From NCBI RefSeq assembly GCF_002975435.1, contig NZ_PCPT01000004.1, positions 248,001 to 312,000 of the forward strand: a stretch of DNA of 64,000 nt, in the 5' to 3' direction. A model generated the notes under the pieces. The model was given only the letters and a program-made list of their open reading frames with translations. It made no database searches and was not told the origin of the DNA. The position numbers and the translations under genes were made by a program. This document shows, in pieces, positions 43,806-58,145 of the stretch (position 1 is its first letter; each line of letters opens with the position of its first letter). This stretch comes from Arthrobacter sp. MYb227. GTDB taxonomy: Bacteria > Actinomycetota > Actinomycetes > Actinomycetales > Micrococcaceae.

Positions 43806-45005
43806 TTAGATTTTCCCGGCAACAAGCTTTCCGGCCCGAAATACCGGCCCCGAAAGGTTCATCCCCGGACGGTACGCCAAGTGAGCCACGGAAGGAGCAT
43901 TGAGCAGCTGAATATCTGCACGCTTACCAACTTCCAGCGTTCCCACCTGATCTTGCACACCCAGCGCTAAGGCGCCACCGTAGGTGGCCGCAACGATTGC
44001 CTCTTCAATGCTCAGATGCATCTGCAGCACGGCAGTTGTCACACAGAAGGCCATGGACGAGGTGTAGGAGGTTCCCGGATTGCAATTTGAGGCAAGAGCG
44101 ATCTGTACGCCGGCATCAAGGAGTTCGCGACCCGGAGCAAAGGGCATGCGTGTGGAGAGATCGCAGGCCGGCAGGCAGGTAGCAACGGTTCCTACCGCAC
44201 CGCTGCGGGTGGCCGGATCCCAAGCGGTCCAAGAACCTGCGAGAGCCAAGATATCTGCCTCATCCAAGAAGTTCACGTGATCAACGCTCGCGGCACCAAA
44301 TTCGACCGCTAGCTGGGTTCCCGGTCCCGGACCCAGCTGGTTTCCATGAACACGCAGTCCCAGCCCGGCATCGCGTGCCGCGGAAAGCACCTGACGCGTT
44401 TGGGCCTCGTTGAAGGCACCGCGTTCGCAGAAGACATCGGCGTACTGCACGTAGGGGGCCACACGTTGGAGCATTTCTCCGCAGACAAGGTCGGTGTATT
44501 CCTGTGCGTCAAGGCCGGCCGGCACCAGATGCGCTCCGAGGAATGTCACCTGGTCAACCACGGTGGAGGCAATGCGCGCGTGGCGGGCTTCTTCCTCAAC
44601 GGAAAGTCCGTAGCCGGTCTTGGTTTCCAGGTAGGTGGTCCCCCCGGCCAACGCCTCCGCGGCCCGACCCATGACCAAGCGGGTCAGATCATAGTCGCTG
44701 GCGGCGCGCGTTGCCGCGGTGGTCACCGCAATGCCGCCGGCCTCATAGTCTTGCCCGGCCATGCGGGCCACGAATTCGCGACTGCGGTCCCCGGCAAAAA
44801 CCATGTGGCTGTGCGAATCGACCCAGCCCGGCAACGCCGCACGGTAACCGGCTTCGATGACCGTATCTGCTGCTGGAGCATCAGCGCTCTTGCCAATCCA
44901 GGCAATCTTTTCGTCCCGGATGAGGATTGCCGCATCCCGAATCAGGGTGTGGTTACTATCCGAGGTGAAGGCCTCGGAAATATTGGTGATCAACGTGGTG
45001 GTCAT
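43806..45005 (-). CDS. hutI: Imidazolonepropionase
   Basis: 399-residue amidohydrolase that opens imidazolonepropionate to formiminoglutamate, the third step of histidine breakdown. The metal-binding DSHSHMVFAGDRSREF, the RVHGNQLGPGPGTQLAVEFGAASVDHVN region (two His ligands, given as its span in the middle of the protein), ALASNCNPGTSYTSSM and YGGALALGVQDQVGTL are family hallmarks. It is the last gene of the hut operon. Its start overlaps the hutF stop by 4 bp. Confidence 0.96.
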   Translation of the reverse strand: MTTTLITNISEAFTSDSNHTLIRDAAILIRDEKIAWIGKSADAPAADTVIEAGYRAALPGWVDSHSHMVFAGDRSREFVARMAGQDYEAGGIAVTTAATRAASDYDLTRLVMGRAAEALAGGTTYLETKTGYGLSVEEEARHARIASTVVDQVTFLGAHLVPAGLDAQEYTDLVCGEMLQRVAPYVQYADVFCERGAFNEAQTRQVLSAARDAGLGLRVHGNQLGPGPGTQLAVEFGAASVDHVNFLDEADILALAGSWTAWDPATRSGAVGTVATCLPACDLSTRMPFAPGRELLDAGVQIALASNCNPGTSYTSSMAFCVTTAVLQMHLSIEEAIVAATYGGALALGVQDQVGTLEVGKRADIQLLNAPSVAHLAYRPGMNLSGPVFRAGKLVAGKI

Positions 45006-46243
45006 GAAAACTCCGGGTGTTCGGTGAAGAATGCTGTGTACAGATCCGCCGGATCTCCCAGCGTTGTATGGATGCCATCGCGTGCAACACGCTTGCCATT
45101 GATACGTACTTCTGCAATATCCGCGGCGGTAGCCGTCAGCGGCAGTTGAGCGGTACGTGATCCGGAGGTACGCATGCTATCGGTGCGCACCAAGAGGTAA
45201 TCGTCGTTTTCGTCTAGCCCCAGCGAACGAAGGCCTCCTTCGCGGGCGGCAGCAGAAATCTCTGCCGGAGCGAAGCGTCCGCGTTGCCCACTGCGAAGCC
45301 GTTCCCCATATTCGAGGCCACGCTGCTCAAGAAAGGGATCCAGCACCGCATGCTGGTCGCTACCCAAGGAAATCACGGCACCCGCATCGGCAAGTTCGCG
45401 GGCCGGGCCAATTCCATCGCCCAAATCGGCCTCGGTGGTCGGACACATGACGATTCCGGCGCCAGCGGCGCCCAAGGCAGCAGTATCAGCATCGCTCAGG
45501 TGAGTTGCGTGAACCGCCGAAAGCCGGGAGCTCAACAAGCCTGCTCGTTCCAGTAGGCCGGTGGGACTTGTTCCAAAGGCAGCCTGACAGGATTCGTTCT
45601 CCGCGGGTTGCTCGGATAGGTGCACATGTAGTGGCAACGCGAGATCCAGCCCGGCGGCAATTTGTTCCAAAGATGCTGGGGATACTGCACGCACCGAGTG
45701 AATCGCGGCGCCCAAGCGCAAGAGCCCTTCGCCCGCATCAAGATCCGCTAACGCGTCAGCCAGTGACTGATGCCGAGCCAGCCAGCCCGCCACGTTGCCG
45801 TCGGAGAAACGTCGCTGAGTCTCGTTGAGCTCAATCACCTCACCTTGTGCATCAAGACCGCCCTGCAGGTAGCAGGTATCGAGTAGCACCAGACGAATCC
45901 CTGCGGCCTGAGCCGCGCGAGCCAGAGCCAGCTCCATGCCGTGTTTCTGCTCCCCCGTGTAGGGTTTGCCGTCGGTGTTGTGGTGTAGGTAGTGGAATTC
46001 GCCCACCGCGCTATAGCCATTGACGACCATCTCGGCGAACACCGCGGTGGCCAGCTGCTGGTAGCCCTCCGGAGTGAGCCCGGCCGCCGCCTCATACATT
46101 TGCTCGCGCCACGTCCAAAAGTTCCCGGCCCCGCCGTCCGCACCCTGATGGGTGCGGCCACGCAGGATGCGGTGGAAGGCGTGCGAGTGCGCATTGACGG
46201 GAGCCGGGACACGAACGGTTTGCTGGCCCACTGGGCTACTCAC
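45002..46243 (-). CDS. hutF: Formimidoylglutamate deiminase
   Basis: 413-residue amidohydrolase making N-formyl-L-glutamate and ammonia from formimidoylglutamate. Metal ligands are seen in NAHSHAFHRILRGRTH, in LPLHVHLSEQPAENE and in LSAVHATHLSDADT, with the catalytic Asp in ISLGSDQHAVLDPF. Choice of HutF defines the route ending in N-formylglutamate, which then needs a deformylase. Both flanking genes overlap it by ATGA, so hutI, hutF and the M20 hydrolase are translationally coupled. Confidence 0.94.
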   Translation of the reverse strand: MSSPVGQQTVRVPAPVNAHSHAFHRILRGRTHQGADGGAGNFWTWREQMYEAAAGLTPEGYQQLATAVFAEMVVNGYSAVGEFHYLHHNTDGKPYTGEQKHGMELALARAAQAAGIRLVLLDTCYLQGGLDAQGEVIELNETQRRFSDGNVAGWLARHQSLADALADLDAGEGLLRLGAAIHSVRAVSPASLEQIAAGLDLALPLHVHLSEQPAENESCQAAFGTSPTGLLERAGLLSSRLSAVHATHLSDADTAALGAAGAGIVMCPTTEADLGDGIGPARELADAGAVISLGSDQHAVLDPFLEQRGLEYGERLRSGQRGRFAPAEISAAAREGGLRSLGLDENDDYLLVRTDSMRTSGSRTAQLPLTATAADIAEVRINGKRVARDGIHTTLGDPADLYTAFFTEHPEFS

Positions 46244-47511
46244 AGCAGATCCTCCAGTGCATCGGCGAGCGCCAGCACGCCGGCGCTGGCGTCATCGTCT
46301 TCAACGTATTCTTCCGGTGAGTGGCTGATACCGGAGGGGTTACGGACATAGAGCATGCCCGAGGGCACCTCGGCCGCGAGGACTCCCGCATCGTGTCCGG
46401 CACCGGTGGGCAGCAGCGGTGCATCGGGTACCAGACGTTGTACCGAGCTGGATAGCGAGCGGGTAAGAGCCGAATCGAAGTGCACGGTGTTGGAGAAGGA
46501 TTCCTCGGTCAGCAGCACGCGGCAGCCCTCAAAGGCCGCAAGCTTTTGGGCCTGACCGTGGATCTTTTCCACAAGCATTGCGGTGATTGCGTCATCCGGG
46601 TGACGGACATCCAGCCACATATCCACCCGAGAGGCAATCACATTGGTGCCGCCGGGCACCGGCTCCAGGCGTCCCACGGTGGCCCGGGCGCTATCCTGTG
46701 CCGCGGCAATCTGGCGCACCGCAACAATTGTCTGTGCCGCGGCAATCATGGGATCCGCCCGATCGGTCATCAGTGTGGTGCCGGCGTGGTTGCCCTGGCC
46801 GGAGAACGAAAGGCGCCAGCGGCCGTGTCCCAGGATTGAATCGCCCACGGCGATGGCAGGACCGCGGCCGGCATGATCGGTGTATTCCTCCGAGTTCAGC
46901 CCCTTACCCTGCTCCACGTGGAGTTCAATGAAATCGCCAATGCGGGCCAGGGCCACCTCGTCGCGGCCCATGCGTGCCGGGTCCAGTCCGTGTGCCGTTG
47001 CAATATCGGCGAAGGTATTTCCTTGCGCATCACGCAAGTTTAATGCCCGGGCCGGATCAATGGCACCTGTCAAAAGGCGTGAACCCAGGCAGGCCACGCC
47101 AAAACGCGAGCCTTCCTCTTCGGGGAATACCGTCAGTGCCAGGGCACGGTTGCGGAGCAATGCGCCGGATGCTTCACGTTCGGCCAACACATCGTAGGCG
47201 GCAAGCGCACTTGCAACACCCAGTGGTCCGTCAAATGCTCCACCACCGGGTACCGAGTCAAGGTGCGAGCCGGTCACCAGGGCTCCCCGGCGCGAGGCCT
47301 CGTCCTTGGCCGAGCCGGGCATATCCCACCAGGCCCAGATAATTCCATTGGCATCGGTTGAGACTTCCAGACCGCGGGAATTGGCCTCGGCCATGAACCA
47401 TTCACGCAAGGTGATTTCGGCATCCGAGTACACGGGGCGTGAATATCCGCCACGCTTGGCATCACGGCCCTCGTCGCTGATGGCCGCCAATAGGGAATTT
47501 ACCGTGCTCAC
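46240..47511 (-). CDS. M20-family amidohydrolase (allantoate amidohydrolase-like) inside the hut operon
   Basis: 423 residues from GTG 47511 (VSTVNSLLAA), preferred because AAAGGA lies 10 nt upstream. ATG 47538 lacks a site. It belongs to the AllC/N-carbamoyl-amino-acid hydrolase group: TGSHLDSVPGGGAFDGPLGV (His and Asp metal ligands), FPEEEGSRFGVACLGSRL (Glu-Glu), ELHVEQGKGL (His), a dimerisation domain with FSGQGNHAGTTLM, and SGAGHDAGVLA near the end. No allantoin genes are nearby. It overlaps hutF by ATGA. In this place it would supply the missing N-formylglutamate deformylase, which is an inference. Confidence 0.9.
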   Translation of the reverse strand: MSTVNSLLAAISDEGRDAKRGGYSRPVYSDAEITLREWFMAEANSRGLEVSTDANGIIWAWWDMPGSAKDEASRRGALVTGSHLDSVPGGGAFDGPLGVASALAAYDVLAEREASGALLRNRALALTVFPEEEGSRFGVACLGSRLLTGAIDPARALNLRDAQGNTFADIATAHGLDPARMGRDEVALARIGDFIELHVEQGKGLNSEEYTDHAGRGPAIAVGDSILGHGRWRLSFSGQGNHAGTTLMTDRADPMIAAAQTIVAVRQIAAAQDSARATVGRLEPVPGGTNVIASRVDMWLDVRHPDDAITAMLVEKIHGQAQKLAAFEGCRVLLTEESFSNTVHFDSALTRSLSSSVQRLVPDAPLLPTGAGHDAGVLAAEVPSGMLYVRNPSGISHSPEEYVEDDDASAGVLALADALEDLL

Positions 47512-47590
47512 GTCTTGGGTGTCCTTTTCATCTCGCATGCGCTCATGACCCGCATGATGGGGGGGTACTACTTGGTACTGCTAAACATTA

Positions 47591-47683: not shown

Positions 47684-49363
47684 CTACTCGGCCATGGGGA
47701 TGCGCACACCACGCTCGTTGGCAACCTCGATGGCACGCTCGTAGCCGGCATCCACGTGGCGGATCACTCCCATGCCCGGGTCGTTGGTCAGCAATGCCTC
47801 GAGCTTGGCCGCTGCCAGCTCGGTGCCATCGGCCAGCGAAACCTGTCCTGCGTGGATGGAGCGGCCAATGCCAACGCCACCACCGTGGTGGATGGAAACC
47901 CAGGTGGCACCCGAGGACACCGCGGTCATTGCATTGAGCAGCGGCCAGTCGGCAATCGCGTCCGAGCCGTCCAACATGGCCTCGGTCTCGCGGTACGGGG
48001 AGGCCACGGAGCCCGAGTCGAGGTGGTCGCGGCCGATCACGATCGGAGCGGAGACCTTACCCTCGGCGACCAGCTGGTTAAACAGCAGGCCGGCCTTCTG
48101 GCGTTCGCCGTAGCCAAGCCAGCAGATGCGCGCCGGCAGGCCCTCGAACTCGACATGCTTCTGGGCGGCATCGAGCCAGCGGTGCAGGTGCTCGTTTTCC
48201 GGGAAGAGTTTCTTCAGCGCCTCGTCGGTCACGCGGATGTCTTCCGGGTCACCGGAGAGTGCCACCCAGCGGAACGGGCCAAGGCCCTCACAGAACAGCG
48301 GACGGATGTAGGCCGGGACGAAGCCGGGGAATTCGAAGGCGCGTGAGTAGCCACCCTGGCGAGCCTCATCGCGGATCGAGTTGCCATAGTCAAAGACCTC
48401 TGCGCCAATGTCCTGGAAGCCAACCATGGCCTCGACGTGTGCTGCCATGGAGACCTGGGCCTTCTTGGTGAAGCCAGCTTCGTCGGCCTTGGCCTCTGCG
48501 TCCCACTGCTCGATGGTGTATTCAACCGGCAGGTAGCTCAAAGGATCGTGTGCCGAGGTCTGGTCGGTGACGATGTCGATATTGATCTCGCCGGCCTTCT
48601 GGCGGCGCAGCAGCTCCGGGAAAACTTGCGCGGCGTTGCCGACGAAACCTACCGAGAGTGCACGCTTCTCGTTCTTGGCCGCGGTGACCTTCGCGATTGC
48701 CGCATCAAGGTCACGTTCTACGTCGTCCAGGTAGCGCTTGCCCAGACGGCGGCGCAGGCGCTCTTCGGAAACGTCGATGATCAGGCAGGCACCGCCGTTG
48801 AGGGTGACGGCAAGCGGCTGGGCCCCGCCCATGCCGCCGCAACCACCGGTCAGCGTCAGGGTGCCCGCCAGGGTTCCACCGAAGCGCTTGACGCCGATCG
48901 CGGCGAAGGTTTCGTAGGTGCCCTGCAGGATGCCCTGGGTGCCGATGTAGATCCAGGACCCCGCGGTCATCTGGCCATACATCATCAGGCCCTCGGCCTC
49001 GAGCTTGCGGAACTCGGGCCAGGTAGCCCAGTCACCGACCAGGTTCGAGTTGGCGATCAGCACGCGCGGTGCCCACTTGTTGGTACGGAACACACCGACC
49101 GGCTTGCCGGACTGCACCAGCAGGGTCTCATCCTCTTCAAGGTCGGTCAGCGTCTTGATGATCGCGTCGTAGGCCTCCCAGGAGCGGGCCGCGCGGCCGG
49201 TTCCACCGTAGACAACCAGGTCCTCGGGGCGCTCGGCAACCTCTGGATCAAGGTTGTTCATCAACATGCGCAGCGGTGCTTCGGTCTGCCAGCTCTTGGC
49301 CGTCAGCGTGGTGCCACGGGGTGAGCGGATGACGCGTGAGGGATCATGTTGGGTGAAGCTCAT
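47684..49363 (-). CDS. hutU: Urocanate hydratase
   Basis: 559-residue NAD-dependent enzyme converting urocanate to imidazolonepropionate, step two of histidine breakdown. Recognisable parts are the N-terminal [21 protein letters not shown]-like [59 protein letters not shown] (NAD-binding), [14 protein letters not shown] and [19 protein letters not shown]. The length is standard. It overlaps the iclR stop by 4 bp, and 172 bp containing a palindrome and a hairpin separate it from the M20 gene. Confidence 0.98.
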
Positions 49364-50061
49364 GGCTGGTTCTCCTGTTGGTCGGCGGTCAATACGTTGT
49401 GGGCCTCGGCGGCGACTAATTCGCCGATGGCCTTGATCTTTTCGGCATCTATCCGGTAGCTGGGGGCTACCACGCTCAGCGCGGCAATCACCCGGGTTCC
49501 GGTAATGCGTCCGTCGGGGGCGTGGGTGGCCACGGCGATGGGTGCGGCAATGGCCGTGACATCGGATTCCACGCCGCGGTCAACCACCACGTAGCCGGCC
49601 GCGGGTGTCTTGCCGGTCAGCACCGCACCGGAGGCGCTACCTTCGAGTGGGACGGTGCGGCCTACCCATGAGGAGTGACGCACCGAGTGGGTGCCTTCAC
49701 GCATGGCAATGTACAGGCCATGCCCCCCTCCGGGACCGTGGTGGGCCTGGACATTGAGGTAGGCGGATTCTCCGGTGGCATCAACGATGCGTTCGAGGGC
49801 TGGCTCGGCGAGGGAAATGATCGATTCATGGCGCAGCGCTTGGGCGCCAAGCTGCACGATCCGCAGTCCCGGGCGGTAGGCACCGTCTTGGTCTTTGCGA
49901 ACAAACCCGGAGGATTCTAGGGTTCGGAGCAGGCGTAGGGCAGTTGATGCAGAAAGTTCGGTTCCCCGTGCTGCGTCTGCCAGCGTCAGGGATCCGGCAT
50001 CGCAGACGGAACCCAATAGTTGCAGCGCCCGCTCCACTGTGCGGGTCGATGGTTCGGCCAT
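49360..50061 (-). CDS. IclR-family regulator of the hut genes
   Basis: 233 residues from the ATG at 50061, which has GGAG 6 nt upstream. ATG 50073 is less well placed. The N-terminal winged helix-turn-helix is at residues 5-60 ([43 protein letters not shown] by span), followed by an IclR effector domain with [25 protein letters not shown] and [15 protein letters not shown]. It is first in the operon with hutU and divergent from hutH across a 143-bp region that holds TTTCA/TGAAA palindromes, so it probably controls both directions in response to histidine or urocanate. Confidence 0.93.
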
Positions 50062-50127
50062 GGTGCTCTCCATTGCTGGTATTAGGTGCTAAAACCGCCG
50101 TAAGGGGGTTGCCCTTTGGCACTGACT

Positions 50128-50204: not shown

Positions 50205-51767
50205 ATGACCTCCACCGTGATCGTTTCAACCGGAGCATTGAGCCCCCTTGACGTCGTTGATGTCGCTCGCCACTTGGCCCACGTAGAGCTCTCCAACGAG
50301 TCAATTGAAGCCATGACGCACTCGCGCAGCGTCATCGACGCACTGGTTACCGACACGGTTCCGCACTATGGGGTTTCAACGGGATTCGGGGCACTGGCCA
50401 CCAAACAAATCCCCATCGAACTACGCACTCAGCTACAGCGCTCGCTCATTCGCTCCCATGCTGCGTCTTCCGGTGCCGAGATCGATCGCGAAATCGTCCG
50501 CGGCCTGATGCTCAACCGGCTTTCCACCATGGCCACGGGACGTACCGGAGTCCGCCCGGTCGTCGCCCAGACCTACGCAGCATTACTCAACGCCTCAATC
50601 ACTCCGGTCATTGGCGAATACGGATCTCTGGGCTGCTCGGGGGATCTTGCACCGCTCTCCCATTGCGCGCTAGCCGTCATGGGCGAAGGTAAAGTCCGTG
50701 ATGCCCAAGGTGATCTTCTCGATGCAGCTCGGGCCATGGCGGCGGCGGGCATTGATCCGGTGGTCCTTGCCGAAAAAGAAGGCCTGGCACTGATCAACGG
50801 CACCGACGGAATGCTGGGGATGTTGCTCATGGCCGCTGCCGATCTACACCGTCTAGCCACAACCGCCGATATCTCAGCGGCCATGAGCGTTGAGGGGTTG
50901 CTGGGCACCGATGCCGTCTTCGCTACCGACCTACACGCCCTGCGCCCGCACCCCGGCCAACGCGACTCGGCTGCGAATATCCGCACCGCCCTTGCCGAAT
51001 CAGTGCTGATTGCCGAACAAAAGGCAGGAGCCCACAAATTCACCCGCGTGCAGGACGCCTACTCGTTGCGTTGCGCCCCACAGGTCCACGGCGCAGTGCG
51101 GGCAACTCTCGCCCATGCCGAATCCGTGGCAGCCATCGAATTGGCCTCGGCCATCGATAATCCGGTGGTTACCTTCGATGGTCGGGTCGAATCTAACGGA
51201 AACTTCCATGGTGCCCCGATCGGCTATGTGCTTGATTTCTTGGCCATCGCCGTGGCGGACCTGGCTTCGATCTCCGAACGACGCACCGACCGATTCTTGG
51301 ACACGGCCCGCAATCACGGCCTCAATGCCTTCCTTGCCGATGACCCGGGAGTCGATTCGGGGCACATGATCGCCCAATACACCGCCGCCGGTATTGTCTC
51401 CGAACTCAAGCGTCTTGCCGTACCGGCTTCGGTGGATTCGATCCCGTCCTCGGCCATGCAAGAAGACCACGTCTCCATGGGGTGGCACGCAGGATTGAAG
51501 CTACGCAAGGCAATCGATGGTTTGGAACGAGTGCTCTCCATCGAATTGTTCACCAGCGCCCGTGCCCTTGATATGCGAGATGGTGGCCTTGCCACCTCCA
51601 AGTCTTCGCCGGTGATCACCGCGGTGCGCGAAGTAATCCGCACGAAGGTTCAGGGGCCGGGAACCGACAGATTCCTTGCCCCCGAGATTGAGGCCGTGCG
51701 TTTATTGGTTGCCGATGCGCAGATCCTGAATGCCGCCAACTCGGTACTCAAAACCCCACTTGCCTAA
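50205..51767 (+). CDS. hutH: Histidine ammonia-lyase
   Basis: 520 residues from ATG 50205, set by AAAGGA 8 nt upstream. The longer frame is not homologous. It deaminates L-histidine to urocanate with the self-made MIO cofactor. The cyclising triad is Cys144-Ser145-Gly146 (GSLGCSGDLAPL); the usual first residue is Ala, and the Cys form also occurs in actinobacterial enzymes. Tyr55 (HYGVSTGFG), His85 (SLIRSHAA), the NGT in ALINGTDGM, QDAYSLRCAPQV, NFHGAPIGY and QEDHVSMGW are all retained, so activity is expected. It is transcribed away from the rest of the hut operon. Confidence 0.97.
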   Translation: MTSTVIVSTGALSPLDVVDVARHLAHVELSNESIEAMTHSRSVIDALVTDTVPHYGVSTGFGALATKQIPIELRTQLQRSLIRSHAASSGAEIDREIVRGLMLNRLSTMATGRTGVRPVVAQTYAALLNASITPVIGEYGSLGCSGDLAPLSHCALAVMGEGKVRDAQGDLLDAARAMAAAGIDPVVLAEKEGLALINGTDGMLGMLLMAAADLHRLATTADISAAMSVEGLLGTDAVFATDLHALRPHPGQRDSAANIRTALAESVLIAEQKAGAHKFTRVQDAYSLRCAPQVHGAVRATLAHAESVAAIELASAIDNPVVTFDGRVESNGNFHGAPIGYVLDFLAIAVADLASISERRTDRFLDTARNHGLNAFLADDPGVDSGHMIAQYTAAGIVSELKRLAVPASVDSIPSSAMQEDHVSMGWHAGLKLRKAIDGLERVLSIELFTSARALDMRDGGLATSKSSPVITAVREVIRTKVQGPGTDRFLAPEIEAVRLLVADAQILNAANSVLKTPLA

Positions 51768-52112
51768 CCGAATAACGCAGGTCCGTCGCTTTGCCTCATC
51801 AGCAACCATCGTCTTGCGACATGACGCTGGGATGACCGGACTGCGCTTCACTCGGATTTTGGAGCAAACAGGTGAGCATCTCCTAGCCTCAAACGATGGC
51901 TGTCGCTGTTGAATTGGGATCTTGTTGCGGGCACGGCCCCGCTAGTTGACGGTGCGGGCCGGCAAGATGCGGTGGGGACGGTTTCTTGGCCTCCACGAGG
52001 TGAGGTAACCGGCAGGCAGACCGCTGAATCCAAACCTCCGGTGTTTGGGAAGCTCAGAAGCTTCCCAAACACCGGACATGGTAATTTTCACATTTGGAAA
52101 GTCTGCAGCGAC
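51768..52112. other. 345-bp region between hutH and the HAL-like gene
   Basis: No gene is supported. It contains the strong hairpin described separately at 52038-52075. The 78-codon frame 51909-52145 runs through that hairpin and into the opposite-strand gene, so it is not accepted. Confidence 0.5.
52038..52075. terminator. Strong hairpin between hutH and the HAL-like gene
   Basis: A perfect 17-bp stem (CCGGTGTTTGGGAAGCT with its complement, 52038-52054 and 52059-52075) around a 4-base loop. It lies between two convergent stop codons and is nearer to the HAL-like gene (37 bp). Confidence 0.8.
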
Positions 52113-53552
52113 TCAGGCGCCAAGTATGCGCTGGGCCACCTCTAAATCTAGACGCAGATCCCGATCTTCCATGGCTTCGGGCAGGTCAAGGGCCCGGCTA
52201 AAGAATTCTCGTGTCTCGAGGCTCAGGAAGTGTTCACCGTCTACGCCCAATTGGCGCAGTGCCCGCACCGAGCAGAGCATTTCACAGGCAGTCATCACCC
52301 GTAGCGCATCCACGCTGCCTACCAAGAGTGCTGCTGCCTCGCTAGCAAAGCTTGCATCGTCTTCTACGCCCAACGAGAGCACCACCGACTGTTGACTCAC
52401 CGGCTGGGCATGCGAGCGCAATCGGCTCAGGGCAGCCGCCGCTACATATTCAATGACCATGACCCCTGATTGCCCAAAGCCGTCCTGAGCCAAGAATCGA
52501 TGTAGGCCGGTATACTCCGGATCGCATAGAAACGAGATTCGGCGCAGACAGGTTGCTGCATTGGTGGCCAAGATCTGCCTGACGGTGTCTAGGCGTTTGG
52601 CCAGTCCCAGCATCAGAAAGAGCCCGTGATGGGCAATGTCGTTGTTGCCCTCTGCGACAGTTCCGATGACCAGCGGATTCTCGTGTCTGGACACTACCAA
52701 ACGGGTCAGGCGTTCCTCAGTTGCCGCAAGTTCTTCGGCTACGTTGCCGGTGAGCTGAGCCATGGTGCGCAAGGCAAACGGGTCTTGTAGCCGAACGGGT
52801 GTTCCCGCGTTACGTACCAAATCAAAGATTCTCCGGTATCCCTCGGCGATTGCTCCCGAATCAAGGCATGCTGCTACGGCCGGACTAAACGGTTCGGGAT
52901 TTCCCGATAGTGCAACAAAGCTCAGCGCACTGGTCAATACCGATTGTTCGTTGATAACTTTCAGGTCGTAATAGGCCAGCACCGATCTGGCAATGGTCAG
53001 CGCATTGGAGCTGATAAATGGCAAAGCGTCTTCGGTGGCCCAGTCTTTGAGGCCTTGACTATAAATACTCCCGTCCAGGGTGGGCCGCTCCCCCAAAAGC
53101 GTTAGCGCAGTACCCGCCAGCGCAGGCAAATCTGAGGTACCGATTCCGCCAAATTCGCGCAACTCAGGCAGTGCATTAGCATTCAGCATCGTGGCAAGCG
53201 CCAAAGGGATCTGGGGGTTAATACCAGAGCCTGCAGCAGCCAACTGCGAAAGTCTAATAACCAGCATTGCCCGCACCGTTGGGGCATCGAGCAATTGTCC
53301 GGCATCTGCGGCATGACTGCGTAAGAGATTCAACCCGTGGTTGGAACCGGAGCTTAGATGGACCGAGCGGTTGGCACCTACCCCGGTGGAGAAACCATAG
53401 ACGGGTCGGCTGCGTGCTGTGGCAGCCACCGACTTATGAGCCTGCGTTATGCGCTCGATGGCGCCTAGGGTCAGTTGTACCTCGGTGCGTTGGCGGGCGA
53501 CGCTGATGATGTCTTCAAGACTCAGGTGTAGGCCATCAATGTCAATCACCAT
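52113..53552 (-). CDS. HAL/PAL-fold protein with an altered MIO site
   Basis: 479 residues clearly of the aromatic amino acid lyase fold: VYGFSTGVGANR (Tyr52), LNLLRSHAADAG (His80), QDPFALRTMAQLTGN and SLGVEDDASFAS (Glu). In place of the Ala-Ser-Gly-Asp that forms MIO it has Gly-Thr139-Ser140-Asp141-Leu, one residue shorter. The active-site Asn-Gly is Ser-Asn (FISSNAL), and the Tyr of QDPYSLR is Phe. It may therefore form no MIO and catalyse something else, or be inactive. The start is ATG 53552, with GGAG 5 nt upstream. It is close to hutH but on the opposite strand with its own promoter. Similar TGD-type proteins occur in actinobacteria as far as I recall, unnamed. Confidence 0.85.
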   Translation of the reverse strand: MVIDIDGLHLSLEDIISVARQRTEVQLTLGAIERITQAHKSVAATARSRPVYGFSTGVGANRSVHLSSGSNHGLNLLRSHAADAGQLLDAPTVRAMLVIRLSQLAAAGSGINPQIPLALATMLNANALPELREFGGIGTSDLPALAGTALTLLGERPTLDGSIYSQGLKDWATEDALPFISSNALTIARSVLAYYDLKVINEQSVLTSALSFVALSGNPEPFSPAVAACLDSGAIAEGYRRIFDLVRNAGTPVRLQDPFALRTMAQLTGNVAEELAATEERLTRLVVSRHENPLVIGTVAEGNNDIAHHGLFLMLGLAKRLDTVRQILATNAATCLRRISFLCDPEYTGLHRFLAQDGFGQSGVMVIEYVAAAALSRLRSHAQPVSQQSVVLSLGVEDDASFASEAAALLVGSVDALRVMTACEMLCSVRALRQLGVDGEHFLSLETREFFSRALDLPEAMEDRDLRLDLEVAQRILGA

Positions 53553-54083: not shown

Positions 54084-54743
54084 ATGCTGCTTTCTGCACT
54101 ACTCGGATTTGCCGGGGTCTCGCTCGTTGTTGCGCTCTCCCCCGGCCCAGACACCTTCCTGCTGCTGCGCTATGCCCTGAATAGGCCTCGCAATGGTGTC
54201 GCCGCGGCATCGGGCATGATGGTTTCGATCATGGGCTGGGCAGCGCTTGCGGGGTTGGGGGTCGCGGCATTGCTGCAGACCTATCCGGCAATCCATCAGG
54301 GTATCGCCATTGTTGGTGGACTCTACCTGCTTTATCTCGGGCTTGGTTCGTTGCTCAAGGCGCAGTTTTTGGCCGGTAGCACCGCGGCAACTGCGCGCAC
54401 CACCAGCAGGTCGTTGGACAATGCTGGAGCTACAGAGTTCACCATCTGGCAATCATTACGGGCAGGTGCCCTATCCTCTGCGCTGAATCCCAAACTTGGT
54501 TTGCTCTTCTTGGCGCTCATGCCACCATTTATCCCTGCCGGATCAAATATGTTGGCATCGGCACTGCTCCTTGGCGGGGTCTTTGCCGTCATTGGATTTA
54601 GCTACCTGATGGTGCTGACATTTATGGCTGCTCGCGCCATGGCCTGGTTCAAAAGCCCAACGGTTGGCATTTGGCTTGAGCGCATTTCATCCGGTGCACT
54701 GGCCATCATGGGTCTCATCGTGCTGATTGGTGCGTTTCTCTAA
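54084..54743 (+). CDS. LysE/RhtB-family amino acid exporter
   Basis: 219 residues from ATG 54084. The upstream AGGA at 54069-54072 is the better-spaced site; AAGGAG directly before the ATG is too close. Six hydrophobic helices are predicted. The family start LSALLGFAGVSLVVALSPGPDTFLLLRYAL and the middle segments GVAAASGMMVSIMGWAALAGLG and ALNPKLGLLFLALMPPFIP (with the conserved Asn-Pro-Lys) identify it. It probably exports an amino acid or derivative. Its position beside histidine genes suggests, but does not prove, relief of amino acid excess. Confidence 0.93.
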   Translation: MLLSALLGFAGVSLVVALSPGPDTFLLLRYALNRPRNGVAAASGMMVSIMGWAALAGLGVAALLQTYPAIHQGIAIVGGLYLLYLGLGSLLKAQFLAGSTAATARTTSRSLDNAGATEFTIWQSLRAGALSSALNPKLGLLFLALMPPFIPAGSNMLASALLLGGVFAVIGFSYLMVLTFMAARAMAWFKSPTVGIWLERISSGALAIMGLIVLIGAFL

Positions 54744-55616: not shown

Positions 55617-58145
55617 ATGGACCGGCTACCAGCGACCCATCCCCCACCCGTTGCACCGCTTGCCCAATTCGGGGCCGCGGATATAGCAACTGTTGGCGGT
55701 AAGGTGGCAAACCTCGGTGAAATTTTGCGGGCCGGGCTTCCTGTACCCGCGGGGTTTGTGGTGACCACAGATGCGTATGCCCAGACCGCCCAACGGGCCG
55801 AGCTTTCCAGCCTCTTGGCTGACCCGGTGGTCACACCGCAGACACTACGCAACACCCTGCTAAGCACCCCCATGCCCGCAGAAATTTGCGCCGCGGTAGC
55901 CGCCGCTTATCAAGACCTGGGTGAAAATCTCCCGGTCGCCGTGCGTTCAAGCGCCACTGCTGAAGACCTGCCCGGCTCGGCCTTCGCCGGGCAACAAGAT
56001 ACTTTCCTCAATATAATTGGTATCGACGCATTACTCGAGGCCGTCAACAAATGTTGGGCTTCGCTCTTTACCGATCGTGCCGTCGATTACCGACGCCAGC
56101 GCAATATCTCCCCCGCCGACGTTCGCATCGCGGTGGTTGTTCAGCTGATGGTTTCATCCGATACCGCAGGAGTCATGTTCACCGCCGACCCGGTCAGCGG
56201 AGCCAGAGACCGCATCATCATCGATGCCGGTGCCGGCCTTGGCGAATCTGTGGTCTCCGGCTTGGTCACCCCGGACCACTACGTATTGGACGCATCCGGG
56301 AAACTACTCGAATGGAAACCCGGACGCGGCGAGGTCATTATTCGACCTTCGGCGGGCGGAGGCGTCACCCATCAATCGGTTGCAGACGATCAGTCTCGCG
56401 CGGCAAGCCCAACCTCTTTGGACCCTGCCGATCCGCTATTGGATTCTGCCGACCTTGCCTCGTTGAGTGCTCATGCATCAACTATCGCCGCACATTTTGG
56501 GCGTCCCCAAGATATTGAATGGGCAATTTCGGCTGGGAAAACCTGGATTGTGCAGGCACGTCCCATGACGGCGCTGCCCGAGCCCACCGCCGAGCTCAAT
56601 GCTTTCCGCCGACTCCAGGGTGCGATCCTTGCCGAGTATCTTCCGGTCCGTCCCTACCCACTGGATGTCACAACACAGATCGCCCATGGTCCGGCACATA
56701 TGATGCATGAGATCACCGATTTCTTTGGGCTCAAGGGTGCCTTCGTTGATTTTTTGCGCGAAGAAGACGGTGTGGTCATTGCCCTGGTTCCGCCATCCCC
56801 ACGTCCCACACCACGGGTGCTACTCACCCCGGCAAAATTGCTCTACCGAGCCCTCCGTTTCAAACCATCCCAGTGGTCAGCCGATCCGCGCCAGAGCGCG
56901 TTCCTCGCCGAGGTCGCCGATCTTGAATCCCTTGAACTGAATTCGTTGTCATGGGACAAACTGTTGACGGTTCCGGCCCGGGCCATGGCCACCCAGAGTT
57001 ACTGCAGGGACCTGCGGATCGATTACCTACCCGGTAGCGGATTAGCGCTGGCGCGCATGATAGTTTTCACCACCGTGTTGGGCCGACGCGCGCTGATCCC
57101 CGATCTGCTCGGCGGTGCACAAACACGCACCGAGGATTCCAACCAGGCCTTGGCCAAACTTGCCGATGAGCTTCGTATAGATCCGGCATTACATATTTTG
57201 GTTGCCACGTTAACTGGCGAAGACGCTGCCGAGCAGCTGAGAAACAATCCGCAACTCGCCGGGTTTGGACGCCGGCTACAGGAATTTCTCAAGGAGTACG
57301 GCCGCCGAGAAACCACTTCTCCGCTCTTGGTTTCCGAACCAACACTTGCCGACTCTCCGGGTGTTGCGCTGGGCATGGTGTTGGCCCTTGCCGATGCCCC
57401 GGCCACCGAGAACGGGACACAATCGAAGTCGGCGAGCGCCCACAAACGTCTGCTGGAGCACTGGTTCTTGCGCAGCGCGCGTTTAAGCACCTTTGCGCAG
57501 CGATTGGTGAATTCTGCCCGCGAAGCCGTTGCCTTCCGCGAAGACACCCATTTCTATTTCACCGCGGCCCTTCCGGTGCTGCGTGCGTCTCTGTTACACA
57601 TCGGTGAACGACTTTGGCATGCTGGGATCTTGCAGAATCCCGAAGAAGTCTTCCACCTGCGCTGGAATGAGCTGACAGGGATTAGCGATCCGGCAATGAT
57701 TCCCTCCGGGCAGCTCGAGCGGCTCGGCAGCGCGATCACAACACGTAGCGCTAAGCGCGCCGAACTTGCAGGAGTTCCGATGTTTGATGCCTCGGTATTC
57801 TTCCCTACCCCGGATACCGGTGACGCGCTGGCTTCCGGTACTCCCGCGGGTTCCGGCAGTGCGACAGGTATCGCCAGAATCATTCGTGAGGCCAGCGACT
57901 TCGAGAAGTTGGGGCATGGGGAAATCTTGGTCTGCCCCTATACCAATCCCGCGTGGACTCCCTTGTTCAAGCGAGCTGCTGCGGTAGTTGTCGATACCGG
58001 TTCGGCAGCTTCACACGCAGCAATCGTGGCACGCGAATACGGGATTCCCGCCGTCATGGGCACCGGCACCGGCACCGCGGTGATCACCGATGGGCAGATG
58101 ATCACTGTTGATGGGACGCGCGGGCGTATTACCCGCGCTCTCTAG
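55617..58145 (+). CDS. PEP/pyruvate-binding phosphotransferase, rifampin-phosphotransferase-like
   Basis: 842 residues in three parts. An ATP-grasp PPDK N-domain (about 1-325) has VGGKVANLGEILRAGLPVPAGF, AVRSSATAEDLPGSAFAGQQ, MFTADPVSGA and DIEWAISAGKTWIVQARP. A divergent helical middle (about 335-720) follows. The C-terminal swivelling phosphohistidine domain has GSAASHAAIVAREYGIPAVMG, with His near residue 799. This order (ATP-grasp, substrate domain, His domain) and length match rifampin phosphotransferases and differ from PEP synthase, which has a C-terminal barrel. The substrate may be rifamycin or another compound. The start is ATG 55617 behind GGAGGAG. TetR is 16 bp downstream. Confidence 0.87.
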   Translation: MDRLPATHPPPVAPLAQFGAADIATVGGKVANLGEILRAGLPVPAGFVVTTDAYAQTAQRAELSSLLADPVVTPQTLRNTLLSTPMPAEICAAVAAAYQDLGENLPVAVRSSATAEDLPGSAFAGQQDTFLNIIGIDALLEAVNKCWASLFTDRAVDYRRQRNISPADVRIAVVVQLMVSSDTAGVMFTADPVSGARDRIIIDAGAGLGESVVSGLVTPDHYVLDASGKLLEWKPGRGEVIIRPSAGGGVTHQSVADDQSRAASPTSLDPADPLLDSADLASLSAHASTIAAHFGRPQDIEWAISAGKTWIVQARPMTALPEPTAELNAFRRLQGAILAEYLPVRPYPLDVTTQIAHGPAHMMHEITDFFGLKGAFVDFLREEDGVVIALVPPSPRPTPRVLLTPAKLLYRALRFKPSQWSADPRQSAFLAEVADLESLELNSLSWDKLLTVPARAMATQSYCRDLRIDYLPGSGLALARMIVFTTVLGRRALIPDLLGGAQTRTEDSNQALAKLADELRIDPALHILVATLTGEDAAEQLRNNPQLAGFGRRLQEFLKEYGRRETTSPLLVSEPTLADSPGVALGMVLALADAPATENGTQSKSASAHKRLLEHWFLRSARLSTFAQRLVNSAREAVAFREDTHFYFTAALPVLRASLLHIGERLWHAGILQNPEEVFHLRWNELTGISDPAMIPSGQLERLGSAITTRSAKRAELAGVPMFDASVFFPTPDTGDALASGTPAGSGSATGIARIIREASDFEKLGHGEILVCPYTNPAWTPLFKRAAAVVVDTGSAASHAAIVAREYGIPAVMGTGTGTAVITDGQMITVDGTRGRITRAL

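Follow-up and report, generated by a model that had tools for sequence, protein, structure and literature searches.

Histidine ammonia-lyase (HAL) uses its cofactor, MIO, to make ammonia a leaving group; trimethylamine leaves unaided. Actinobacteria degrade ergothioneine oxidatively, through a dioxygenase and a desulfinase that are not known to go beyond hercynine, and a 2024 study reportedly describes a dioxygenase of this type working with a metal-dependent desulfinase to convert ergothioneine to trimethylhistidine (hercynine) and SO2. Ergothionase works without MIO and frees trimethylamine from ergothioneine (PMC13405746). No hercynine lyase yielding urocanate was found among the titles and abstract openings searched; many relevant papers appear in subscription journals, and a prior description is possible. 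Here we describe a gene from a 64,000-nucleotide stretch of DNA of the soil actinobacterium Arthrobacter sp. MYb227 (the window), whose product, a member of a large actinobacterial family of MIO-less HAL-fold lyases, most likely converts hercynine (N-alpha-trimethyl-L-histidine), a betaine of histidine made by fungi and bacteria, to trans-urocanate and trimethylamine. We infer that the protein is an enzyme, the mechanism that it would use and hercynine as its substrate from comparisons of its active site, relatives and gene neighbourhoods.

The gene (hereafter the target) adjoins a normal hutH and the hut operon, as the first-pass annotation of this DNA had recognized, and the locus comprises the following features:

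43806-45005, minus strand: hutI, imidazolonepropionase (NCBIfam scan).
45002-46243, minus strand: hutF, formimidoylglutamate deiminase (NCBIfam scan).
46240-47538, minus strand: M20 hydantoinase/carbamoylase-family amidohydrolase of the hut operon, missing the ErtE cut-off (261 vs 520).
47684-49363, minus strand: hutU, urocanate hydratase (881 bits, cut-off 375), failing both thiourocanate hydratase cut-offs (643 vs 930 and 697 vs 880).
49360-50073, minus strand: IclR-family regulator, homologues of which flank the target in other genomes.
50205-51767, plus strand: hutH, a normal MIO-type histidine ammonia-lyase with a CSGD motif (NF006871, 658 bits vs a cut-off of 524; TIGR01225, 611 vs 539).
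52037-52076, minus strand: hairpin with an 18-bp stem and a 4-nt loop just 3' of the target stop codon, a possible terminator between the convergent target and hutH.
52113-53552, minus strand: the target, encoding a 479-aa MIO-less HAL-fold protein, the proposed hercynine trimethylamine-lyase, with loop G138-T139-S140-D141.
54084-54743, plus strand: LysE-family exporter, outside the claimed pathway.

The hairpin is put forward as a terminator because of its stem length alone, and a terminator consensus scan returned one terminator-like site against 2.5 expected in shuffled sequence. In the window the target is lodged between hutH and lysE. Among the sister genomes, lysE lies within 1.5 kb of hutH without the target in 10 of 14 loci and no lysE falls within that stretch in the other four; the simple reading is that the target is a single gene gained at the hut locus of the window. 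A separate observation is an 842-aa protein of the PEP synthase / rifamycin phosphotransferase superfamily, encoded on the plus strand at 55617-58145, which falls under all curated NCBIfam cut-offs (best 432 bits vs 945; rifamycin-inactivating, 381 vs 999).

The target reading frame is intact, running on the minus strand from an ATG at 53552 to a stop at 52113, and the plus strand opposite it contains many stops; the boundaries given in the first-pass annotation therefore stand, with the gene itself assigned to the minus strand. Its product matches the Pfam family Lyase_aromatic at 271 bits, in agreement with the earlier description of a HAL/PAL-fold protein devoid of the MIO triad, but falls far short of the hutH equivalog TIGR01225 (211 bits, cut-off 539) and exceeded no cut-off in the NCBIfam scans. 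In alignment, the target loop EFGGIG-TSD-LPALAG is one residue shorter than EYGSLGCSGDLAPLSH of the adjacent HutH, so that it reads G-T-S-D where lyases read C/A-S-G-D, and no Ala/Cys-Ser-Gly occurs at the MIO-loop site. The earlier reading of Thr139-Ser140-Asp141 with a deletion is thus borne out, whereas its assignment of Ser-Asn as the counterpart of the HAL Asn-Gly pair was wrong: that pair aligns with Ser181-Ser182, Asn183 being the next residue. The replacement of the catalytic Tyr by Phe was also seen, as Phe259 at the site of Tyr280 in HAL numbering, though 60 of 141 family sequences have Tyr there. Tyr52, His80, Arg262 and Glu397 are retained as first noted, together with Gln256.

Within the genus, only the window genome of 15 carries it, genome searches having returned no target homologue in any of the 14 sister genomes. 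A clear member is present in 25 of 395 Micrococcaceae genomes (42 if HutH matches are counted), and matches at E ≤ 1e-44 were obtained in 23 of 396 genomes at the level of the order and in 21 of 345 at that of the class, the window genome included in each. Queried with a single protein, species-genome contigs and viral sequences gave no match, but an alignment-based scan of species-representative genomes recovered at least 597 stretches, among them at least 594 relatives; the 80 best of these relatives were retained, every one under an actinobacterial title. Two of 72,556 plasmid records match at E ≤ 1e-20. For the new matches, 18 of 20 loci were fetched at order level, two being left out, and 18 of 18 at class level. 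In total 140 loci were fetched, 60 from the genome searches by taxon and 80 from the species-representative scan, in two sets that overlap in part, for example at the Paenarthrobacter aurescens TC1 record, which with the window protein gave 141 aligned sequences, 132 of them distinct.

Across this alignment the loop is one residue short in all 141 sequences, with Thr at position 139 in 140 and Asp at position 141 in every one. Position 140 is Gly in 91, Ala in 42 and Ser in eight, these being the window protein and seven others, and an MIO-type triad (Ala/Cys/Ser/Thr-Ser-Gly) occurs in none. Gln256, Arg262 and Glu397 are invariant, Tyr52 and His80 are found in 140 of the 141, and E291-N292-P293 and Y369 are kept in 140 or 141. 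Because the same short loop recurs in 140 aligned relatives, it does not reflect chance or decay, and MIO cannot form in the 133 sequences that have Gly or Ala in the middle of the loop. The family, as read from its sequences, is one of MIO-less HAL-fold proteins of actinobacteria; it is real, conserved and, by all sequence signs, enzymatic. A decayed hutH copy or pseudogene was also considered and is ruled out by the intact reading frame and the conservation of the family. The suggestion that the target is an ordinary ammonia-lyase with an unusual MIO made from Thr-Ser-Asp draws on Ser140 of the window protein and the seven sequences that share it; it is extremely improbable, as the loop is one residue too short and the Ser that it needs is Gly or Ala in the remaining 133 sequences, including Ala in the closest relatives of the window protein, which are 53-59% identical to it.

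An AlphaFold2 model of the target built with 28 family sequences has the HAL fold, with a mean pLDDT of 92.4 and a pTM of 0.92, residues 131-140 of the loop averaging 79. Foldseek against the PDB placed ergothionase first (6s7j; E 1.4e-25, TM 0.90) with HAL just behind (1gkj; 1.0e-24), a near tie that leaves the fold by itself undecisive, and a sequence-profile search scored ordinary HALs above ergothionase, with 310 bits for 7tqr and 284 for Pseudomonas HAL against 257. A tree of 43 rows, built after masking the loop columns (27 target-family rows, five of a second MIO-less family, one ergothionase and ten MIO enzymes), recovered the target family as monophyletic with support of 100. One branch parts the MIO-less proteins (target family, second family and ergothionase) from the ten MIO enzymes with support of 98, and 96/96 in a repeat, in a tree that has long branches and samples few MIO enzymes. 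A topology joining the target family to actinobacterial HutH was rejected (p-AU 0.02), which rules out a local hutH duplication and, with it, the first-pass term paralogue if taken to mean a copy of the neighbouring gene. Joining the family to ergothionase alone was permitted yet unfavoured (p-AU 0.46), the single ergothionase in the tree sitting on a long branch with support of 43.

The strongest sign of the product comes from the genes that surround the target in its closest relatives. Neighbour counts are tblastn tags with set thresholds over all 140 fetched loci and are lower bounds, because several of these loci end at contig ends. In nine genomes of Arthrobacter and Paenarthrobacter (group g10), which carry the homologues 53-59% identical to the window protein, seven of the nine loci have the order IclR, betaine-type ABC ATPase, two permeases, binding protein, HutU and target on a single strand; the other two are without those tags, one at a contig end just upstream and one with a HutU remnant only. 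A full HutU adjoins the target in six of the nine genomes and a further full HutU lies beside hutH at a separate locus, the two copies being 94.4-99.8% identical over 444-478 aa in the fetched stretches, while the other three genomes show fragments, contig ends or a HutU copy not placed beside hutH. The one target-linked HutU that was scanned (locus L057) passes the hutU cut-off and fails both thiourocanate hydratase cut-offs. A near-identical urocanase beside the target thus points to urocanate as the target's product. In one genome (G377), hutH- and hutU-like fragments with in-frame stops were seen on contig C23 at about 235215-237399, and contig C6 carries a target cluster with an open urocanase and an open target gene.

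Beyond this group, HutU occurs in 47 of the 140 loci and any hut gene in 49, and gene order varies by lineage: hutU-hutF-hutI precede the target in L101, and hutI-hutF-M20-hutU-hutH follow it in L135. The sole baseline for the neighbour counts is rough arithmetic, by which a HutU would lie within 9 kb of a given gene with a chance of about 0.4% (one copy per 4.3 Mb). These neighbourhoods bear on a further option raised in the first-pass annotation, that the target has no catalytic role and serves HutH as a partner or sensor, and equally on such a role towards urocanate. Its position next to hutH in the window and its want of MIO would suit such a role, but active-site residues are conserved over 141 sequences, and six Arthrobacter-type genomes carry hutH at a separate locus, with the urocanase and, in the fetched loci, the transporter beside the target; we regard this option as very unlikely. 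A dedicated urocanase would equally be accounted for if the target were a cis-urocanate isomerase supplying HutU with trans-urocanate, and a bacterial activity of this kind has reportedly been described in Micrococcus. We know of no such isomerase mechanism in an MIO-less HAL fold, and OpuC-type transporters and ergothioneine-dioxygenase homologues near the target would be left unexplained, which makes isomerization very unlikely as well.

At least three of the four components of an OpuC-type transporter were tagged in 78 of the 140 loci. Engineered proteins aside, the best PDB relatives of the target-linked binding protein include EgtUC, and EgtU holds ergothioneine via an aromatic cage (PMC9732360). 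In an alignment-read mapping from EgtUC to the linked protein, the cage aromatics change from F293 to Tyr, Y341 to Asp, Y419 to Phe and Y443 to Gln, Glu or Ala; K242 is replaced by Ala and T296 mostly by Ala, and E375 and R379 are kept in a 12-sequence set, not at every locus. In the binding protein of L057 (11745-12656) and its homologues, Asp140 and Phe221 replace cage tyrosines and are accompanied by a Glu174/Arg178 pair, all four residues being invariant in 12 aligned binding proteins. The quaternary-amine cage thus appears to be kept in part, and its alteration suggests that the ligand may not be a plain betaine; the altered cage would fit a histidine-like ligand, a quaternary one less clearly. 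In the window itself no transporter adjoins the target, and two complete OpuC-type systems are encoded elsewhere in the genome.

Neither hut genes nor an OpuC-type transporter were tagged in 55 of the 140 loci, and 22 loci (for example L184, 7516-8925) have an MFS transporter no more than 6 kb from the target homologue, mainly those that lack hut genes and the ABC transporter. Together these counts suggest that the substrate may vary across the family; an MFS neighbour may mark another substrate, and some members of the family may act on other betaines. For the window protein this raises the prospect of an MIO-less lyase of another modified histidine or aromatic amino acid, such as dimethylhistidine or another aromatic betaine, hypaphorine for instance, with a lineage-dependent substrate, for which the acidic residues in the cage of the binding protein also speak. 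We consider it unlikely, since His80, a ring-selectivity position of HAL and TAL, is kept in 140 of 141 sequences and the repeated urocanase linkage argues for urocanate as the product in several lineages.

A second set of neighbours connects the family with ergothioneine. A small cupin lies near the target in 33 of 140 loci and an amidohydrolase-like protein in 31, both being present in 30, of which 12 also have hut genes. The L210 cupin shares 70-73% identity with PDB entries 8qfl-8qfr, titled 'Ergothioneine dioxygenase from Thermocatellispora tengchongensis' (sequence match E 1.9e-78). A 12-sequence profile of the amidohydrolase-like protein hits ACMSD-type metal-dependent decarboxylases, at best with 45 bits (E 7e-11). 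This ACMSD-like metalloenzyme, seen in L210 (11612-12526) and 30 other loci, with the dioxygenase homologue present in 30 of the 31, is a candidate ergothioneine sulfinic acid desulfinase; no NCBIfam model matched it or the dioxygenase homologue, and the copies scanned gave no Pfam match (1e-5, L073). If the dioxygenase and desulfinase yield hercynine, as is reported, the target lyase would be the next step. A further MIO-less HAL-fold family was noted in L073 (3850-5346), L074, L075, L076, L077, L108, L111-L115 and L150, sharing loci with the target homologue and ergothioneine-dioxygenase homologues. Its loop, GA-AGEIIPLAH in an alignment of eight sequences, lacks the MIO triad, and 12 of the 60 taxon-search loci have a member close to the target, compared with none of the 80 species-scan loci.

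The same evidence weighs on whether the target might itself be an ergothionase, splitting ergothioneine to thiourocanate and trimethylamine. Ergothionase 6s7j is the top Foldseek match, the short loop and motifs are held in common, and EgtUC is among the relatives of the linked binding protein. The partner hydratases scanned, however, are of the urocanase type and not thiourocanate hydratases, the window HutU reaching 643 against a cut-off of 930, and the dioxygenase homologue in 33 loci (30 with the metalloenzyme) indicates that sulfur would be gone before the lyase step. Searches of the window genome found one HutU and neither an ergothioneine dioxygenase nor EgtD, the EgtD model being positive in just one of 14 control genomes, so that a thiourocanate route would be left without a visible next enzyme. 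Taken together, an ergothionase is unlikely. With EgtD and the dioxygenase not found there, exogenous hercynine would be taken up as the direct substrate.

Our preferred reading, a hercynine trimethylamine-lyase, is consistent with the family-wide context of hut genes (49 of 140 loci), transporter (78) and dioxygenase with metalloenzyme (30), of which the window shows the hut link only. From hercynine the target would release trimethylamine, leaving trans-urocanate for conversion to glutamate by HutU, HutI, HutF and the M20 hydrolase. By homology, Tyr52 would be the base that abstracts the beta proton, Arg262 would bind the carboxylate, and His80 and its surroundings would bind the imidazole, roles that we assume carry over from the corresponding HAL residues. 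Trimethylamine would depart without MIO, whose space the T-x-D loop would occupy; trimethylamine, a good leaving group in its own right, would make the electrophilic cofactor unnecessary. The option of a lyase with other chemistry, one of several in the first-pass annotation, is therefore the one that has gained support.

On balance, we also favour the broader proposal that this widespread actinobacterial family is the missing hercynine trimethylamine-lyase, which with ergothioneine dioxygenase and desulfinase would complete an aerobic route that starts from ergothioneine or hercynine and yields urocanate, glutamate, sulfite and trimethylamine, and that the HAL fold can do without MIO wherever a quaternary group leaves. 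The species-representative scan gave at least 594 relatives; the proteins of all 140 loci read are without the MIO triad, yet resemble histidine ammonia-lyases by fold and Pfam. If the proposal is true, the family would consume hercynine and ergothioneine of fungal and actinobacterial origin in soil and be an unrecognized source of trimethylamine, and when the HAL fold can dispense with MIO would become directly testable, the substrate being available.

Among known systems, the MIO-dependent HutH shares with the target its fold, Tyr52, His80, Gln256, Arg262, Glu397 and, as predicted, its urocanate product; the target differs in having no Ala/Cys-Ser-Gly, Ser-Ser in place of Asn-Gly and one residue deleted. 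In the actinobacterial oxidative degradation of ergothioneine (the 8qfl-8qfr dioxygenase and a desulfinase), the dioxygenase homologue and candidate desulfinase that flank the family in 30 of 140 loci would supply hercynine, whereas the dioxygenase was not found in the window genome. The second MIO-less family likewise has the HAL fold without the MIO triad, but forms a separate clade in which the loop Asp is Glu. Ergothionase (Treponema denticola, PDB 6s7j/6s7q; also Burkholderia sp. HME13) differs from the target in phylum, with about 24% identity, in its partner, thiourocanate hydratase rather than urocanase, and in the sulfur that the target's predicted substrate lacks. The two nevertheless have in common the HAL fold, the missing MIO triad, a loop one residue shorter, GVG-x-N and S-x-N-A motifs, the MIO-less side of the tree and, as predicted for the target, a trimethylamine leaving group. 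The target is thus most likely a variant of the kind of MIO-less lyase known from ergothionase, one that would act on hercynine.
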